DNA of 64,000 nucleotides. Source: Bernardetiaceae bacterium. GTDB lineage: Bacteria; Bacteroidota; Bacteroidia; Cytophagales; Thermoflexibacteraceae. The position numbers were made by a program, and so were the translations under genes. The stretch spans positions 1 to 64,000 of the forward strand of contig JANWVT010000008.1 of the NCBI GenBank assembly GCA_025056255.1, given 5' to 3'. This document shows positions 1-46,983 of the stretch, piece after piece (position 1 is the first letter of the stretch; every line of letters starts with the position of its first letter). The notes below the pieces were generated by a model. The model was given only the letters and a program-made list of their open reading frames with translations. It made no database searches and was not told the DNA's origin.

Positions 1-175
1 CAACGGCGTACCCACAGGCGTGGAAGTATCGGCGGCGATGCAGCACGGCGGACCGTTCCCCGCCACCACCGATGCGCGCTTCGGTTCGGTCGGTACGGAT
101 GCCATGCGTCGCTTTTTGCGCCCCGTTGCGTTGCAGAATTGCGCGGATGGAATCATTGACGATTTGGGATTTTAG
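1..175 (+). CDS. Aldehyde dehydrogenase, 2,5-dioxovalerate (ketoglutarate semialdehyde) type, C-terminal end
   Basis: Only the last 57 codons are in the window, read from base 2 to the TAG at 173-175. The stretch GVEVSAAMQHGGPFPATTD followed by RFGSVGTDAMRRFLRPV is typical of the C-terminus of NADP-dependent alpha-ketoglutaric semialdehyde dehydrogenases, which oxidise 2,5-dioxopentanoate to 2-oxoglutarate in sugar-acid or hydroxyproline breakdown. Family members usually stop soon after the RPV..QN segment; here about ten more residues (ending IIDDLGF) follow. They come from a direct repeat GATTTGGGATT that spans the stop codon. Family call is fairly sure, exact substrate is inferred. Confidence 0.75.
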   Translation, partial: NGVPTGVEVSAAMQHGGPFPATTDARFGSVGTDAMRRFLRPVALQNCADGIIDDLGF

Positions 176-184
176 ATTTGGGAT
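161..184. repeat. Short direct repeat GATTTGGGATT across the stop codon
   Basis: GATTTGGGATT occurs at 161-171 and again at 175-185, separated by only three bases. The first copy encodes the last residues of the aldehyde dehydrogenase and the second follows its stop codon. A related pattern, GGATTTCGGATTTCGG on the minus strand, lies near 47890-47910. Confidence 0.6.
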
Positions 185-286
185 TGACGCTTTTTTGTAA
201 GCACATGAAAAAATCAGTGGAAATTAGCGTTCAAGCACGGATTTTTTGACGGGGTTTGTGTTAAATCAATTGCATCTTCGCGTACT

Positions 287-398
287 TTGCGGGGGAAACC
301 GTGTTTCCCCAACCCTGTTAGCGGTTGTAAGACCCTAATAGTGGTTTAACATGATATGATACACTTGCAGCCGTGCTTGCAGCCGCTGTTAGGGTTTA
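287..398 (+). promoter_or_regulatory. Structured leader region upstream of hisC
   Basis: The 284-base gap before hisC contains two inverted repeats. GGGGAAAC and GTTTCCCC pair over a three-base loop near 292-310. AACCCT...AGCGG near 311-325 can pair with CCGCT...AGGGTT near 384-397, with a three-base internal loop. A direct repeat CTTGCAGCCG lies between the arms (about 366-388). No known riboswitch or His-codon leader peptide was recognised. The structure is visible; a regulatory role is inference. Confidence 0.3.
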
Positions 399-459
399 AA
401 AAATTTCCACCCCGTCAGCGGACGAAGTCTCTGCCGGCGGTTCGTTAAAAATAACAGAC

Positions 460-1521
460 ATGACCACTACCAATACATTCAATATCAGCCAGTTGCTGCG
501 CCCCCACATTGCGGGGCTGAAACCGTATTCATCTGCCCGCGACGAGTATAGCGGCAAAGAAGGCATATTTTTGGATGCCAACGAAAATGCCTTTGGCTCT
601 GTTACCGAGCAGGCATTTAACCGCTATCCCGACCCTTACCAGCACGAACTGAAAGCCAAAATTGCCGAGTTGAAACACTGCCGCCCCGAACAGATTTTTC
701 TGGGCAACGGCAGCGACGAGGCGATAGACTTGCTCTACCGCGCCTTTTGCGAACCGCATCTGGACAACGTAATTATTTGTCCACCAACCTACGGCATGTA
801 CGAAGTCAGCGCGGAAATCAATTGCGTAGAAGTGCGCCGTGTACCGCTCACCGCCGAGTTCCAACTGCAACCGCAGGCTATCATGGAAGCAGTGGATTGG
901 CATACCAAGATGATTTTCGTTTGTTCGCCCAACAACCCGACTGCCAACAACATGGCACCGGACGACATCCGCTACCTGCTGGAACATTTCCACGGGCTGG
1001 TGGTGGTGGATGAAGCCTATATTGACTTCACCACACAGCCGAGTTTTGTTGGGTCGCTGGAAAAATACGCCAATTTGGTAGTGTTGCAGACCTTCTCTAA
1101 GGCGTGGGGCTTGGCTGCACTGCGCTTGGGTATGGCTTTTGCTTCGCCCGACATTATCCGCGTGCTGAACAAGATTAAGCCCCCGTACAACATCAATGGC
1201 GTAACCCAACAGTTGGCACTGGTCGGTTTGAGCCGCACCGATACTTTCCGCGAAATGGTGAACGAAACACTGCAACAGCGCGAACTGCTGGCAGCTACGC
1301 TCAAATCGTTGCCGCAAGTGCTGCATGTGTACCCGTCGGATGCCAACTTTTTGCTAGTGAAAGTGTCGCGCCCGAAGGAATTGTACGATTTCCTGACGCA
1401 AAAACAGGTGATTGTGCGCGACCGCTCCAAACTGGCACTTTGCGAAGGCTGCCTGCGCATCACGGTAGGCACTGCCGAGGAAAACCGACAACTGGCGGCT
1501 GCCATTCAGCAGTTTGTGTAG
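460..1521 (+). CDS. hisC: Histidinol-phosphate aminotransferase
   Basis: This PLP enzyme of fold type I converts imidazole-acetol phosphate and glutamate to L-histidinol phosphate in histidine synthesis. The 353-residue length is normal. Visible features are DANENAFG near residue 38, the cofactor-contacting LGNGSDEAID around 80, CSPNNPT around 155, VVDEAYIDF around 181, and the PLP lysine K214 in TFSKAWGLAALRLG. The other his genes are not in this window, so hisC is outside any his operon seen here. Its TAG stop is followed with no gap by the ATG of the next gene, an AAA ATPase, which suggests translational coupling of two functionally unrelated proteins. Confidence 0.93.
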   Translation: MTTTNTFNISQLLRPHIAGLKPYSSARDEYSGKEGIFLDANENAFGSVTEQAFNRYPDPYQHELKAKIAELKHCRPEQIFLGNGSDEAIDLLYRAFCEPHLDNVIICPPTYGMYEVSAEINCVEVRRVPLTAEFQLQPQAIMEAVDWHTKMIFVCSPNNPTANNMAPDDIRYLLEHFHGLVVVDEAYIDFTTQPSFVGSLEKYANLVVLQTFSKAWGLAALRLGMAFASPDIIRVLNKIKPPYNINGVTQQLALVGLSRTDTFREMVNETLQQRELLAATLKSLPQVLHVYPSDANFLLVKVSRPKELYDFLTQKQVIVRDRSKLALCEGCLRITVGTAEENRQLAAAIQQFV

Positions 1522-32784: not shown

Positions 32785-34149
32785 TTACTGTGAAAGTTCC
32801 GTATAGAAAAGTTGTAGCCGCATCCGCTCTGCCTGAATAGGTGCTTGTGGGTCGCCTACCATGAGCAGGTTACCCGGTGCAGTGTTGAGCAAGCTCATTA
32901 GTAACACGCCATGATTGAGCGTGCGTCCGTCTAAAAGGCGCTGCACATAGGTAGTGATATCCATGTCGGGGTAGGTGCGTCCGGCTTCTACATAGTTTCT
33001 TTCCATGCGCACATTAGGGTTTCTTTCTTCGGGCACGAAAATCGGTAAGCCAGAAGAGTTGCGCACCAACCTACCGTTAGGGTCTGAAATGCCTAACATA
33101 AGCGTAGGGGGCAGCGGAGCATTAATTTTGCCAGCGGCTTGGAAGTTGCGCTCTGAAGGGTGGAAAGACAGCAAAGCGCGATTGACCATGATGCGTTTAT
33201 TGGGTTTGAGCAGGGCTCTTAAATGCGGTATTTCTATGCGTGTAGCAATACCCATGCCGCTGTGTATGTAGCCTAAGTTGCCAAGTTGCCAAGTTGGGAT
33301 ACTGCGGCGAGCAGGCAGTCCGGCTAACAATCTGCCTTTGCTAAAATCGGCTTGCAGACGGGTGAAAGCACTGCCGTCGCGAAGAACGAGTTGGTTGAAT
33401 GCATCTCTTGCCGGATTGTAGAAGAAAAAGTTGTGCGATTTGGAAACCGTGTCGCTTGGGTCGTTGCGGTAAAACAACGCCATGCGCGATTGAATCAGGT
33501 CGAAGCCAAACAAAGCAGCATTGTCAGGTCCTTCGGCGGCAAGGCGCAATCCTTTAAAATATTGCTCAAAATTGGTTTGGTTAGCCAGTTCTGCACGTCC
33601 TTCTTTGCTAATGAGGTCGCGTGCAAAAGCATTGCTCAACCTTATGCGCATAGAGCTACGATTGCGCGGCAAACGGTAGGTAAACCTACCTAGTTCTTCG
33701 CCGAAGGGCATGCGGTCGAATGCGTAGTATTTGCGTGCCGTGTCTGGCGAGGCTGTTAGGCGATTTACCACAATGGTTTGAGCCATAGTGGTGTCGCCAT
33801 ATTGGTAGTTGTAGTCTAAAATGAGTACTAAGGAATCGAAAATAACAGTGCTGTTGCCTGCGGTAGTAAAACGCAGCGAGTCGCGCGGGAGAAGTACTTT
33901 GAAAAACGATTCGGCACGCAAAGTACCTACATCGGCATCTGCTATGCTACCTACTAAAATGAAGTTGTTAGTTTGTAAAGAGTCTAACAATTGTACGCTG
34001 GTACGCAGCGTGAGCGTATCGGTGTACAGCGTATTGACAAGCTCTGCTTGCCGGATGTTGAGCGTAAGGTCAAAACTTTCGTCGCAGGCAGTCAGTGTGC
34101 CAAGTGCAACAACAAGCAGCAAACCCCACCGTTTCAGAAGGGATAGCAT
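32785..34149 (-). CDS. DUF4270 family lipoprotein
   Basis: The 454-residue protein has a lipoprotein signal with lipobox LTAC (Cys22). The mature start (CDESFDLTLNIRQAE) and the segment FDSLVLILDYNYQYGDT are typical of DUF4270, a large family confined to Bacteroidetes and predicted to be exported beta-rich proteins. It follows the GT5-like gene on the same strand, an order kept in many members of the phylum, but has its own -7 box (TATCTTTG, 34181-34188). Function is unknown. Confidence 0.83.
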   Translation of the reverse strand: MLSLLKRWGLLLVVALGTLTACDESFDLTLNIRQAELVNTLYTDTLTLRTSVQLLDSLQTNNFILVGSIADADVGTLRAESFFKVLLPRDSLRFTTAGNSTVIFDSLVLILDYNYQYGDTTMAQTIVVNRLTASPDTARKYYAFDRMPFGEELGRFTYRLPRNRSSMRIRLSNAFARDLISKEGRAELANQTNFEQYFKGLRLAAEGPDNAALFGFDLIQSRMALFYRNDPSDTVSKSHNFFFYNPARDAFNQLVLRDGSAFTRLQADFSKGRLLAGLPARRSIPTWQLGNLGYIHSGMGIATRIEIPHLRALLKPNKRIMVNRALLSFHPSERNFQAAGKINAPLPPTLMLGISDPNGRLVRNSSGLPIFVPEERNPNVRMERNYVEAGRTYPDMDITTYVQRLLDGRTLNHGVLLMSLLNTAPGNLLMVGDPQAPIQAERMRLQLFYTELSQ

Positions 34150-34180: not shown

Positions 34181-34211
34181 CAAAGATATAATCAATTAGC
34201 AGATGAGCAAT
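34181..34211 (-). promoter_or_regulatory. Promoter of the DUF4270 gene
   Basis: Minus-strand TATCTTTG (34181-34188) with ATTG 19 bases upstream (34208-34211) fits the Bacteroidetes promoter pattern. It overlaps the end of the GT5-like gene. Confidence 0.45.
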
Positions 34212-35016
34212 TTAAAAGCTCGTGGTAGATGTTGTAGTAAGCATCTGTAAAAGATTCTGCATTTTCTTCAATAGTAGGAACAGGTTTGCCTGAGATGGTT
34301 TCCAAGTCGGGCACTGCACGTGCTACGTTGGGGTCTGCTTTTACTACTGTATCGGAATAGCGCGCCCCAATGCGAATGAAGCCAGAGTAGTCAAAGGGAT
34401 GCAGGGTTTTAAGGGCTTCATCGTCTATGTCTATCATTTTCACTTTGCCTACTAACGACTCATCAAACTGATAGTCAAACTTACTATCGTAAACTGTAAA
34501 TACAGTCTTGGCATCTTTAAACATGGGGTCGTTTCGGTAGGTTGTTTTCAGATACAGCGGAATCAGACTGGTCATCCAATCGTTGCAGTGCACAATGTCG
34601 GGTGCCCACCCTAATTTTTTAACTGTTTCAATCACCCCTTTGCAAAAAAATACTGCGCGCTCGTCGTTGTCGGCATAGAAGCGGTTGTCTTTATCCGTGA
34701 AAACATGCTTGCGCTGGAAGTAGTCTTCATTATCAATAAAGTACACTTGCAGCTTGGCGTTGGGTACAGAGGCTACTTTAATAATAAGGGGTTTTTCTTC
34801 GTCGCCAACAGCTATGTTGATTCCTGAAAGCCTGACTACTTCGTGCAGGCGGTTTTTTCGTTCATTAATAATGCCAAAGCGCGGCACTAAAATCCTGATT
34901 TCCATTCCCCGTTCGTGCATCGCTTGGGGGAGTTTTCGTACGTAGTCTGAAACGGCAGATGTTCTTAGAAAAGGATAGATTTCGCTGGATACGTACAGGA
35001 TTTTAATTTTTGACAT
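34192..35016 (-). CDS. Starch/glycogen synthase-like protein, GT5 N-terminal domain only
   Basis: The 274-residue protein corresponds to the N-terminal Rossmann domain of GT5 glycogen synthase: KIKILYVSSEIYPFLRTSAV (the GlgA form is usually K-x-G-G-L, here RTSAV), then DIVHCNDWMTSLIPLYLKTTY and VFTVYDSKFD. Full GlgA is about 480 residues; the C-terminal nucleotide-sugar domain is missing, so ADP-glucose transfer by this chain alone is doubtful. It is divergent from panC with a 179-base gap, an arrangement common in Bacteroidetes. A -7 box TAACTTTG lies at 35054-35061. Confidence 0.8.
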   Translation of the reverse strand: MSKIKILYVSSEIYPFLRTSAVSDYVRKLPQAMHERGMEIRILVPRFGIINERKNRLHEVVRLSGINIAVGDEEKPLIIKVASVPNAKLQVYFIDNEDYFQRKHVFTDKDNRFYADNDERAVFFCKGVIETVKKLGWAPDIVHCNDWMTSLIPLYLKTTYRNDPMFKDAKTVFTVYDSKFDYQFDESLVGKVKMIDIDDEALKTLHPFDYSGFIRIGARYSDTVVKADPNVARAVPDLETISGKPVPTIEENAESFTDAYYNIYHELLNCSSAN

Positions 35017-35053: not shown

Positions 35054-35061
35054 CAAAGTTA
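35054..35061 (-). promoter_or_regulatory. -7 promoter box of the GT5-like gene
   Basis: Minus-strand TAACTTTG lies 37 bases upstream of the start. A TTTG (minus) occurs at 35085-35088, a spacing of 23 bases, longer than optimal. Confidence 0.4.
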
Positions 35062-35195
35062 CAAAAATTAATTCAAAACTAACACAAATCATTTTGTTGT
35101 AGTATAATTGCAGCGTAAATACCCGTTTTGTTGCCTTTTCAAAACCATAGATTAATTGCCACAATTCTAATTTTTTCTCGAATCGACGTTTCTTA

Positions 35196-36038
35196 ATGGA
35201 AATATTCCAAAAGACTGCCGAACTGATGCACTGGCGAAATGCGCACCGACCCCAGTCGGTTGGTTTTGTTCCTACTATGGGCGCGCTTCACGCTGGGCAT
35301 ATCTCGCTTGTTGAACGGGCAAAATCGGAAAATCACTTGACTGTTTGCAGCATCTTTGTCAATCCGACGCAATTCAATAATGCAGATGATCTAAAATACT
35401 ATCCCCGTACACCGGAACAAGACTTGGAAATGTTACAGGCTGCCGGTTGTGATGCTGTGTTTATGCCTGATGAAGTGGAAATGTATGCTGCTCCGCCACA
35501 AATGCGGCTGCATTTTGGGAACTTAGAACAAGTAATGGAAGGCGCTCACCGCCCTGGTCATTTCAACGGTGTGGGGCTGGTTGTGAGCAAACTGTTTCAC
35601 ATGGTACAACCCGACGTAGCCTACTTTGGGCAGAAAGACTTACAGCAATTTCTCATCATCAAGCGCTTAGTTACTGACTTGTCTTTTCCGGTTCGGTTGG
35701 TTTGCTGCCCTGTTGTGCGTGAGCCAGACGGCTTGGCAATGTCGTCGCGAAACATGCGCCTAAGCAAGCAAGCCAGAGAGCAAGCCCCTGCTCTATATCG
35801 AGCGCTTAATGTAGCCAAACAGCGAATTCTTAATGGGGAAAAGCCAGACTTAGTTTGTGCAGAAGTTGCTGCTCAGCTAAACGAAAACCCTTCTTTTCAT
35901 GTTGAATATTTGGTGCTGGTAGATACGGAAAACCTTCGCCAAGTACATCACCCACAAGCCTGTGAGGAATACGCCCTGTGCATTGCAGCTTTTGTAGAGC
36001 AGGTAAGACTAATAGACAATTTGATATTTCGCATGTAA
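35196..36038 (+). CDS. panC: Pantothenate synthetase
   Basis: PanC joins pantoate and beta-alanine with ATP to form pantothenate, the CoA precursor. The 280-residue protein has FVPTMGALHAGHISLVERA (about 24-42, with the HxGH ATP site), NPTQFN, HRPGHFNGVGLVVSKLF, FGQKDLQQ and the KMSKS-like SSRNMRLS. Length is normal. panD follows after 103 bases, completing the beta-alanine branch. A half-length GT5 gene is divergent from it. Confidence 0.96.
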   Translation: MEIFQKTAELMHWRNAHRPQSVGFVPTMGALHAGHISLVERAKSENHLTVCSIFVNPTQFNNADDLKYYPRTPEQDLEMLQAAGCDAVFMPDEVEMYAAPPQMRLHFGNLEQVMEGAHRPGHFNGVGLVVSKLFHMVQPDVAYFGQKDLQQFLIIKRLVTDLSFPVRLVCCPVVREPDGLAMSSRNMRLSKQAREQAPALYRALNVAKQRILNGEKPDLVCAEVAAQLNENPSFHVEYLVLVDTENLRQVHHPQACEEYALCIAAFVEQVRLIDNLIFRM

Positions 36039-36141: not shown

Positions 36142-36489
36142 ATGCTAATTCATGTTTTAAAATCTAAAATACACCGCGTTAAGGTAACGCAAGCAGAGCT
36201 AAATTACGTAGGCAGTATTACCATTGACCAAGATTTGATGGATGCTGCAAACTTGATTCCGGGCGAAAAAGTTCAAGTAGTCAATAACAACAACGGGGAG
36301 CGGTTTGAAACATATGTAATTGCTGGTGAACGCGGCTCGGGAGTAATATGCCTCAATGGTGCAGCAGCACGCCGCGTGCAGGTAGGTGATATTATCATCA
36401 TCATTGCGTATGCTATTATGGATGCCAAAGAGGCTGCTACTTTCCAACCAGCTCTTGTGTTTCCCGACGAGAACAATCGCCTTTTGTAA
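36142..36489 (+). CDS. panD: Aspartate 1-decarboxylase
   Basis: PanD decarboxylates aspartate to beta-alanine. The 115-residue precursor has the self-cleavage site Y-V-G24-S25, where serine becomes the pyruvoyl group, and the conserved [26 protein letters not shown] near residue 72 is the usual substrate-site segment. It lies 103 bases after panC on the same strand. Length is slightly below the E. coli enzyme, with no sign of truncation. Confidence 0.95.
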
Positions 36490-45005: not shown

Positions 45006-46808
45006 ATGAATGTAGACGCACCGCTATTGATAGAGACTGCTTGGGAAGTATGTAACCAAGTAGGAGGTATTTACACAGTGATTCGCACCAAAATCCCAGC
45101 AGCAGTAGCTGCTTGGAAAGAAAACTATTGCTGTTTAGGTCCTTATGTTCACCCCAATGTGCAGGCAGAATTTGAACCGGCTGATGGGAGTGACTATGAT
45201 ACTCCCATAGGTAGGGCAGTACAAAAAATGCGCGAAGCCGGTTTTGAGGTTTACTACGGATACTGGTTAGTAACGGGCAAACCACGTGTGGTACTGTTCA
45301 ATCCCTATCAGGTCTATCCTCGACTGGGAGATATCAAATACGAGCTGTGGGAGCACCATAACATTAGCACCCCGCCCGATGTAGAGCTAATCAACCAAGT
45401 AGTAGCTTTTGGCTACATGGTAAAAGAATTTTTTATTCGGCTTGTTTATGAAAACACTACTCAGCAGAAAATAATTGCCCATTTCCACGAGTGGATGGCA
45501 GGTACGCCTATTCCAGAAATCCGCTACCTTCGTTTACCCGTTACAATCGTATTCACCACTCATGCTACCCTGTTGGGGCGTTATTTAGCAATGAACGACC
45601 CCGATTTTTACAACCATTTACCTTTTTTGAACTGGGCATACGAGGCAAAACATTTCAACATTGAGCCTTCGGTAGCTATTGAACGAGCAGCAGCACACGG
45701 CGCACAAGTGTTTAATACGGTTAGTGAAGTTACGGGCGAAGAGTGCATCCACCTGCTTAGCCGCAAACCAGATAATATAGTTCCTAATGGATTGAACATT
45801 GAGCGCTTTGTAGCCTTACATGAATTCCAAAACTTGCACTTGGCGTACAAAAAGCAGATTCACCGGTTTGTCATGGGGCATTTCTTCCACAACTACAAAT
45901 TTGATTTGGATAAAACGCTATACTTTTTCACTTCTGGACGTTACGAATACCGCAACAAAGGGTTTGACCTCACCTTAGAAGCCCTTGCTCGGCTCAACGG
46001 GCTCATGCGACTTTATGACATAGATGTTACTGTGGTGATGTTTTTCATTACCAAGCGCCCCTTTACCAGTATTAACCCCTTTGCCCTGCATACGCGTGCT
46101 TTATTGGAAGAAATTCACCAAACCTGCCATGCTATTACTGAACAAATCGGCGAGCGAATGTTCAACGAAGTAGCAGGCGGCACCTCGCCCAAACTACCGC
46201 CCTTAGAAACTTTTATTGATGATTACTGGCGCCTGCGCTTGCGCCGAACTGTGCAAAGCTGGCGCAGTAAAACTTTGCCGTTAGTAGTAACGCACAATTT
46301 AGTTGATGACCAAAACGACGAAATTTTAAATTTCTTACGCATTTCACAATTAGTCAATCATCCTTACGACAAAGTAAAAATTGTCTATCATCCCGATTTT
46401 ATTTCGCCTGCCAGTCCACTGTTTGGCATGGAATACAATCAATTTGTGCGCGGTTGCCACTTAGGTATCTTCCCAAGCTACTACGAACCTTGGGGCTATA
46501 CGCCTTTGGAATGTATGGCAAGCGGCGTCCCCTCAGTTACCAGCGACCTATCAGGTTTTGGCGACTATGTTATGAAGAATATTCGCGACTATGAAGACAA
46601 GGGCATTTATGTAGTCAATCGCTATAACCGCTCTTTTAACGATGCTGCCAACCAACTGGCAGAGCAAATGTTCCGCTTTGTTCAGCAAAGCCGCCGCGAC
46701 CGCATTGCACAACGCAATCGCGTAGAGGCAGCTTCTGTAGACTTTGACTGGAGCCGCCTCTACCGCCATTATCAAGAAGCTTACCAACTGGCGTTAGAAA
46801 GATTTTGA
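45006..46808 (+). CDS. Glycogen synthase, GT3 (eukaryote-like) family
   Basis: The 600-residue protein is a GT3 glycogen synthase, the type found in animals and fungi and in Bacteroidetes. It starts LLIETAWEVCNQVGGIYTVI; the donor-site arginine/lysine region FFTSGRYEYRNKGFDL lies near 310, HFHEWMAG near 162, and GIFPSYYEPWGYTPLECM with the acid pair near 493. It extends glucan chains from a sugar nucleotide. Start at 45006 fits family length; ATG 44979 is possible. tpiA lies downstream after 175 bases. It is a full enzyme, unlike the half-length GT5 protein at 34192. Confidence 0.9.
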   Translation: MNVDAPLLIETAWEVCNQVGGIYTVIRTKIPAAVAAWKENYCCLGPYVHPNVQAEFEPADGSDYDTPIGRAVQKMREAGFEVYYGYWLVTGKPRVVLFNPYQVYPRLGDIKYELWEHHNISTPPDVELINQVVAFGYMVKEFFIRLVYENTTQQKIIAHFHEWMAGTPIPEIRYLRLPVTIVFTTHATLLGRYLAMNDPDFYNHLPFLNWAYEAKHFNIEPSVAIERAAAHGAQVFNTVSEVTGEECIHLLSRKPDNIVPNGLNIERFVALHEFQNLHLAYKKQIHRFVMGHFFHNYKFDLDKTLYFFTSGRYEYRNKGFDLTLEALARLNGLMRLYDIDVTVVMFFITKRPFTSINPFALHTRALLEEIHQTCHAITEQIGERMFNEVAGGTSPKLPPLETFIDDYWRLRLRRTVQSWRSKTLPLVVTHNLVDDQNDEILNFLRISQLVNHPYDKVKIVYHPDFISPASPLFGMEYNQFVRGCHLGIFPSYYEPWGYTPLECMASGVPSVTSDLSGFGDYVMKNIRDYEDKGIYVVNRYNRSFNDAANQLAEQMFRFVQQSRRDRIAQRNRVEAASVDFDWSRLYRHYQEAYQLALERF

Positions 46809-46983
46809 TACTGCTCGTTTTGAGTGGCGTTTGGTTTAATTTTGAACAGGTTAATTTGAAAAATTGATAAGGGTAAAAGTCTCTATCTGTCATTTTTGAT
46901 GACCCATGTGCGCCTGCTGTGTTGCTACTACAACAGACAGGCGGAGCATATAGAAGGCGTCAATCTGATTAACTCCAACAGTT

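Follow-up and report, generated by a model that had tools for sequence, protein, structure and literature searches.

Glycogen synthases of the GlgA type are GT-B glycosyltransferases of family GT5 built from two Rossmann lobes, and we take K15, H161, R300, K305 and E377, among other residues, to play donor, catalytic and phosphate-binding roles in them. Alg14 and Alg13 together form a split GT-B enzyme, and GlmR/YvcK and RapZ are regulators of the enzyme GlmS. In this report we analysed a GlgA-like gene within a 64,000-nucleotide stretch of DNA (the window), whose product, hereafter the short GT5 protein, has no C-lobe and thus only one of the two Rossmann lobes of GlgA. We consider it rather probable that this protein is a catalytically dead, cytoplasmic pseudo-glycogen synthase that acts by binding, is kept by the phylum and probably serves envelope biogenesis. 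Searches of an open-access library turned up no account of the short form. A DUF4270 gene is named in PMC10434189, and PMC10985783 deals with a gene of tobacco. PMC10394638 describes a selection signal in a Porphyromonas gingivalis "glycogen synthase" orthogroup, which is read there as glycogen storage and may or may not correspond to the short GT5 protein. The features of the locus are collected in Table 1.

Table 1. Features in and around the short GT5 gene, in window coordinates.
Feature	Position	Strand	Basis or remark
DUF4270 lipoprotein, directly downstream of short GT5	32785..34149	(-)	PF14092 E 2e-26; BamH-like fold
Short GT5 protein	34192..35016	(-)	Intact ORF, 274 aa; PF08323 E 7e-60; AF2 mean pLDDT 94.9
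C-terminal crossover helix, residues 256-273	34198..34251	(-)	Residues 256-268 pair with 465-477 of E. coli GlgA in the alignment
Linker, residues 243-255, site of absent C-lobe	34252..34290	(-)	Alignment jumps from E. coli residue 225 to 463
N-lobe, residues 1-242	34291..35016	(-)	Aligns with E. coli GlgA as far as residue 225
R18-T-S-A-V22 replacing GlgA K15-T-G-G-L19 (donor loop lost)	34951..34965	(-)	Alignment
Promoter box TAACTTTG, Bacteroidota-type -7	35054..35061	(-)	37 nt before ATG of short GT5
Second promoter box TAGTTTTG	35074-35081	(-)	Upstream of short GT5
panC, divergent neighbour of short GT5	35196..36038	(+)	
panD	36142..36489	(+)	
Full-length GT3 glycogen synthase, separate gene	45033..46820	(+)	E 3e-208

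The first finding of this work is that the short GT5 protein is an N-lobe closed by its own crossover helix, from which about 240 C-lobe residues have been lost. The reading frame starts with ATG and has zero internal stops, and in a Pfam profile search PF08323, the N-lobe homology, covers residues 5-235, all of which bears out the intact half-length GT5 gene described in the first-pass annotation. The anatomy was read from an alignment of 35 short proteins including that of the window, one very divergent copy, 19 two-lobed relatives and E. coli GlgA, with the residue numbers of the N-lobe and helix match taken from a second, similar alignment; linker residues 243-253 scatter over E. coli GlgA 402-415. 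An AF2 model of the protein covers both the N-lobe and the last helix, and VIA-align places its residues 4..268 on 1..477 of E. coli GlgA (2qzs; Z 26.2, rmsd 2.6, 23% identity over 245 aligned residues) and 4..269 on 1..477 of 1rzu (Z 26.5), these ranges giving the first and last aligned residue only. A Foldseek match was to 6ldq, a piece of sucrose-phosphate synthase titled 27_220_406_426. Since the N-lobe and the crossover helix are both kept and the roughly 240 residues between them are gone, this is not a plain truncation. The protein had at first been described as an N-terminal domain only; the N-lobe stands, but "only" does not, as the GT-B C-terminal crossover helix is also retained.

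A complete N-lobe closed by a crossover helix is what a separate subunit would need, and the short GT5 protein might accordingly be pictured as contributing the acceptor lobe to a GT-B enzyme of two subunits, as Alg14 does with Alg13, with its donor lobe encoded elsewhere, a reading that we regard as very improbable. Against it, no orphan PF00534 C-lobe was found in the organism's own genome, and no orphan GT5 C-lobe in the window or in 119 genomes of the class. In the own genome PF00534 gave nine matches, each within a frame of 379-609 aa. At E 1e-8, a query with the GT5 C-lobe matched in 12 of the 119 class genomes, ten times in frames of 475-490 aa and twice in frames of 374-380 aa, and tblastn for the GT5 C-lobe found none in the window (best E 1.2). 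The N-lobe catalytic His, moreover, is present in just four of 42 short forms, which also speaks against a split enzyme. The own genome has two more weak PF08323 sites, in frames of 462 aa (G000:C20:20774-22060) and 562 aa (G000:C30:90675-91217), the former with a PF00534 C-lobe as well.

The active-site residues of GlgA are largely gone from the short forms, a comparison for which 42 of them were counted and one very divergent copy (L160) was left out. K15 is retained in seven, G17 in none, D21 in 20, D137 in 25 and H161 in four, while N246, R300, K305 and E377 fall within the missing C-lobe; the window protein has Tyr at the H161 position, and its KxGGL motif is altered as first reported. 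By alignment, K15, H161, R300, K305 and E377 are all present in 17 of 17 two-lobed non-chlorobial relatives. With no C-lobe and hence no nucleotide-sugar site, no donor loop and no catalytic His or Glu, the short GT5 protein should neither use ADP-glucose nor make glycogen, and it would have no transferase activity; on these residues, we infer that it is a pseudoenzyme of GT5.

The short forms instead appear, from their aligned residues, to conserve a surface of their own. At least 41 of the 42 share the same residue at each of Glu12, Arg41, Arg53, His58, Glu59, Arg62, Ser64, Lys80-Ser83, Pro85 and Gln90-Phe93, and several of these positions belong to a conserved hairpin region (RxxxLHEVxRLSG ... 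KVASxP ... QVYFxDN; window residues 53-96), in which Ser64-Gly65 and Ala82-Ser83 are unlike most two-lobed forms. Judged by profile scores, no curated family fits the short form. Among its curated matches only Pfam PF08323 passes its cut-off, and the NCBIfam glycogen synthase models lie far below theirs (149 bits against a cut-off of 328 for TIGR02095, and 214 against 754 for NF010698, the best-scoring curated profile).

The short forms appear to have a single origin. The careful N-lobe tree held 65 rows, with the KxGGL columns removed and L160 left out for its long branch; the KxGGL filter admitted only three of ten full Bacteroidia GlgA loci to the trees. All 42 placed short forms make up one clade (100/99), whose neighbours in the tree are two-lobed proteins of other classes in the phylum. 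Chlorobiaceae group with other two-lobed forms (93/91), but a clade of short forms plus Chlorobiaceae is not rejected by the AU test (p 0.448), so that the donor site may have been lost either once, before the two diverged, or twice. The C-lobe was apparently lost once, from a GlgA of Bacteroidota/Chlorobiota type.

The two-lobed "starch synthase" of green phototrophs, represented by 22 loci (L146, L154 and L219-L238; family f35), is itself probably another dead or re-purposed GlgA, to judge from its residues, although a short-form query found no second GT5 in the genomes of this family. All 22 sequences, 19 read by alignment and three by motif, have Arg at K15, Gly, Asn or His at R300 and Gln at K305, with His161 and Glu377 retained in the 19 aligned ones. 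L146 and L154 score above the NF010698 cut-off. In all four stretches L215, L216, L217 and L218 a divergent gene with Big_5 domains lies upstream of the two-lobed GT5, and L215 and L216 also hold protochlorophyllide reductase-type genes close by. Since the Big_5 gene is upstream in chlorobial and f33/f46 stretches alike, these GT5 genes hold the same place.

Our second finding is that the short GT5 gene is under strong constraint and widely retained. Its dN/dS against three congeners is 0.019-0.023 (dS is high and the ratios are approximate), and its identity to them is 92-94%; panD is equally constrained (90-93%) and panC much less so (67-75%). Each of the three congeners keeps the frame intact, and so does every one of the 138 loci of the initial extraction (own gene counted twice), which encode 264-279 aa. 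Thus neither of the two outcomes that the first-pass annotation named as refuting it, a separate C-lobe gene or a broken frame in close strains, was found. With the own genome counted throughout, a match was found in 38 of 39 close genomes, in 237 of 247 Bacteroidia genomes (214 of the 216 near-complete ones) and, two-lobed forms included, in 197 of 198 genomes of the phylum. No match was found in two genomes of the class (G317 and G347) or in one of the own family (G010), which are 98, 95 and 96% complete, perhaps because these assemblies are in 300-410 contigs. The intact frames, the wide retention and the low dN/dS rule out decay, as the first-pass annotation had judged, and its suggestion of a non-catalytic or different role gains from the same constraint and retention together with the loss of donor and catalytic residues. 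One very divergent short GT5 (L160, genome G016; 29-31% identity) adjoins panC and a DUF4270 gene all the same, and possibly has a relaxed or changed function.

A promoter motif is common to most of the loci. The motif TAnnTTTG, which we take to be the Bacteroidota-type promoter box, occurs at most 150 bp upstream in 130 of 136 short-GT5 loci, the window gene included, against 14 expected from mononucleotide shuffles, so that the promoter box first noted for this gene proves to be typical; scanning the same region for sigma-70 promoters and Rfam families yielded no useful match. By inspection, the protein has no signal peptide.

The genomic distribution bears directly on a link with glycogen, in which the protein would regulate the GT3 synthase or the branching enzyme, or assist one of them by binding glucan. 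Its descent from GlgA and the presence of both a GT3 synthase and a CBM48 enzyme in the own genome would suit such a role, and the full GT3 glycogen synthase previously reported in the window is indeed there. However, seven of 11 genomes tested have neither a GT3 nor a CBM48 match and no second GT5 match, and all seven have the short GT5 gene. A further genome (G254), a single contig of 489,825 bases, has an intact short GT5 gene that keeps 36 of 49 conserved positions and has no CBM48 match. The short GT5 gene thus persists in genomes without GT3 and CBM48, which makes a glycogen role unlikely; we rate it as very doubtful.

The gene neighbourhood was surveyed in loci from 40 different Bacteroidia families. 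panC lies divergent upstream in 35 of them. Three further sets, counted where the flank was long enough, show it there in 18 of 29, 24 of 27 and 72 of 75 loci, and this adjacency is what favours a regulator of pantothenate or CoA synthesis acting with PanC. In contrast, panC adjoins none of the 15 short-form loci from outside Bacteroidia, is divergent and not co-transcribed, and has evolved much faster than the short GT5 gene, which is kept in four genomes without a panC match (G033, G018, G036 and G254; 99, 93, 89 and 93% complete). The presence of the gene where panC is unmatched makes a CoA role unlikely, and the link with CoA synthesis put forward in the first-pass annotation now seems hardly credible. 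The related claim that the gene keeps its place beside panC and DUF4270 in the phylum holds for both neighbours within Bacteroidia and fails for panC outside the class.

Downstream, a lipoprotein-like ORF comes next on the same strand in 38 of the 40 families, and a profile built from 34 further DUF4270 proteins matches all 38 (one profile member, L049, is the same gene as L243). Outside Bacteroidia a DUF4270-like gene is next in all eight loci tested of the 15, most of them below Pfam's own cut-off. Pfam still labels DUF4270 (PF14092) as unknown. The window DUF4270 protein matches BamH, a subunit of the BAM machinery, in predicted fold and in sequence. Its AF2 model (pLDDT 86.3) finds BAM subunits of P. 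gingivalis (9hjm_G; Z 25.5, rmsd 4.0, 375 aligned), Flavobacterium johnsoniae (9n2d_C; Z 24.1) and Bacteroides thetaiotaomicron (9his_G; Z 20.7), the next row after these three having Z 13.0, and a profile of 34 DUF4270 proteins, that of the window first, matches 9his_G (E 4e-12) and, more strongly, 9n2d_C (E 4e-29), which bears the name "Bam H". glmS follows downstream on the same strand in 31 of the 40 families. In a second set of 98 loci with at least 2.2 kb downstream, 67 show a glmS motif in the same orientation. Given the match of DUF4270 to BamH, the usual order would be short GT5, BamH-like lipoprotein, GlmS. In the window no glmS motif was found, and queA is the next gene after DUF4270 instead; queA occurs in 0 of the 40 family stretches, so the order short GT5-DUF4270-glmS does not reflect general conservation of the region. 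A DAHP synthase gene sits between DUF4270 and glmS in L251 and L274, and L266 has there an extra ORF of like size and place.

This neighbourhood has its exceptions. None of the 15 short-form loci outside Bacteroidia has a glmS motif downstream, and two genomes have the short GT5 gene followed or flanked by genes other than DUF4270 or glmS: dnaE comes after it in G033 (1.1 Mb), and in G254 it stands between gyrB and eno. The neighbourhood also appears to have a history. In L218 (family f33) the two genes after a two-lobed GlgA are first one of HAD type and next one resembling DUF4270 (46.7 bits), which suggests that this arrangement probably arose before the lobe was lost; in L217 a gene at a similar place scores only 9 bits against the DUF4270 profile. 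Distance correlations over 28 loci, uncorrected for shared ancestry, are 0.78 for GT5-GlmS, 0.54 for GT5-PanC and 0.59 for PanC-GlmS.

Taken together, these data are consistent with the following course of events. A Bacteroidota/Chlorobiota-type GlgA would have lost its C-lobe, with the N-lobe staying closed by its own crossover helix, and the resulting protein would have been retained as a core gene product under strong purifying selection. Its hairpin region and the surface laid bare when the C-lobe disappeared may contact a partner in envelope biogenesis, for which the usual operon products, cytoplasmic GlmS or, less directly, the BamH-like lipoprotein, are candidates. Both the binding role and the link with the envelope are inferred. 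As only GlmS among the operon products should share a compartment with the short GT5 protein, it is the boldest specific partner. The protein could then be a Bacteroidota-wide regulator or scaffold of GlmS that matches UDP-GlcNAc supply to outer-membrane assembly, an unlikely but specific idea. By analogy, and on the basis of gene order, it might then fill the place that GlmR or RapZ has in other phyla, a suggestion that we hold just as tentatively. Gene order is not function, and the missing glmS downstream in the window counts against our best explanation, as do the lack of a glmS motif downstream in the loci outside Bacteroidia and the different neighbours in G033 and G254.

The link with BamH is wider than that with glmS, extending to the loci outside Bacteroidia, and in at least one case (L218) it probably predates the loss of the C-lobe. 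Being wider and probably older, it makes outer-membrane assembly with BamH rather than GlmS a rival to be reckoned with, for example by helping, within the cytoplasm, to supply BAM lipoproteins or to check their quality. The site of action of BAM surface lipoproteins lies beyond the inner membrane, however (9his is titled as having extracellular components), whereas the short GT5 protein shows no signal peptide by inspection, and in G033 and G254 the gene has neighbours other than DUF4270. We see this as a possibility of some substance, although an unlikely one.

The short GT5 gene matters for several reasons. A gene that is near-universal in the near-complete Bacteroidia genomes sampled is easily mistaken for an enzyme, because its product resembles only glycogen and starch synthase profiles and passes none of their cut-offs, and GlgA-based claims of glycogen synthesis in such bacteria would be wrong wherever they rest on it. 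Because even a 490-kb genome retains it, and because it usually shares an operon with glmS and the gene for a BAM lipoprotein, it is a test case for the linking of precursor supply to the building of the outer membrane in this phylum. Nature also provides in it a clear instance of a GT-B protein that has lost one entire lobe and kept the crossover helix.

Comparison with known systems highlights both similarities and differences. The short GT5 protein shares the N-lobe fold and the crossover helix with GlgA (TIGR02095, GT5; E. coli 2qzs), but GlgA has a C-lobe, KxGGL, His161, Arg300, Lys305 and Glu377, all of which the short form lacks. With the chlorobial "starch synthase" (NF010698, PRK14098) it has an INxRxxRLHxVxRL insert in common, and neither has KxGGL; unlike the short form, the chlorobial protein keeps the C-lobe, His161 and Glu377, its Arg300 and Lys305 being replaced. 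Alg14 is likewise a single GT-B lobe, but one with a partner lobe, and none was found for the short GT5 protein. In 6ldq, sucrose-phosphate synthase was, by its title, cut in the same way for structure solution, to an N-lobe and a C-terminal piece; that is a construct, whereas the short GT5 protein is a natural one. Finally, GlmR/YvcK and RapZ would be functional analogues if the short GT5 protein controls GlmS, with no sequence relation seen, PF08323 being the only Pfam family that passes its cut-off.
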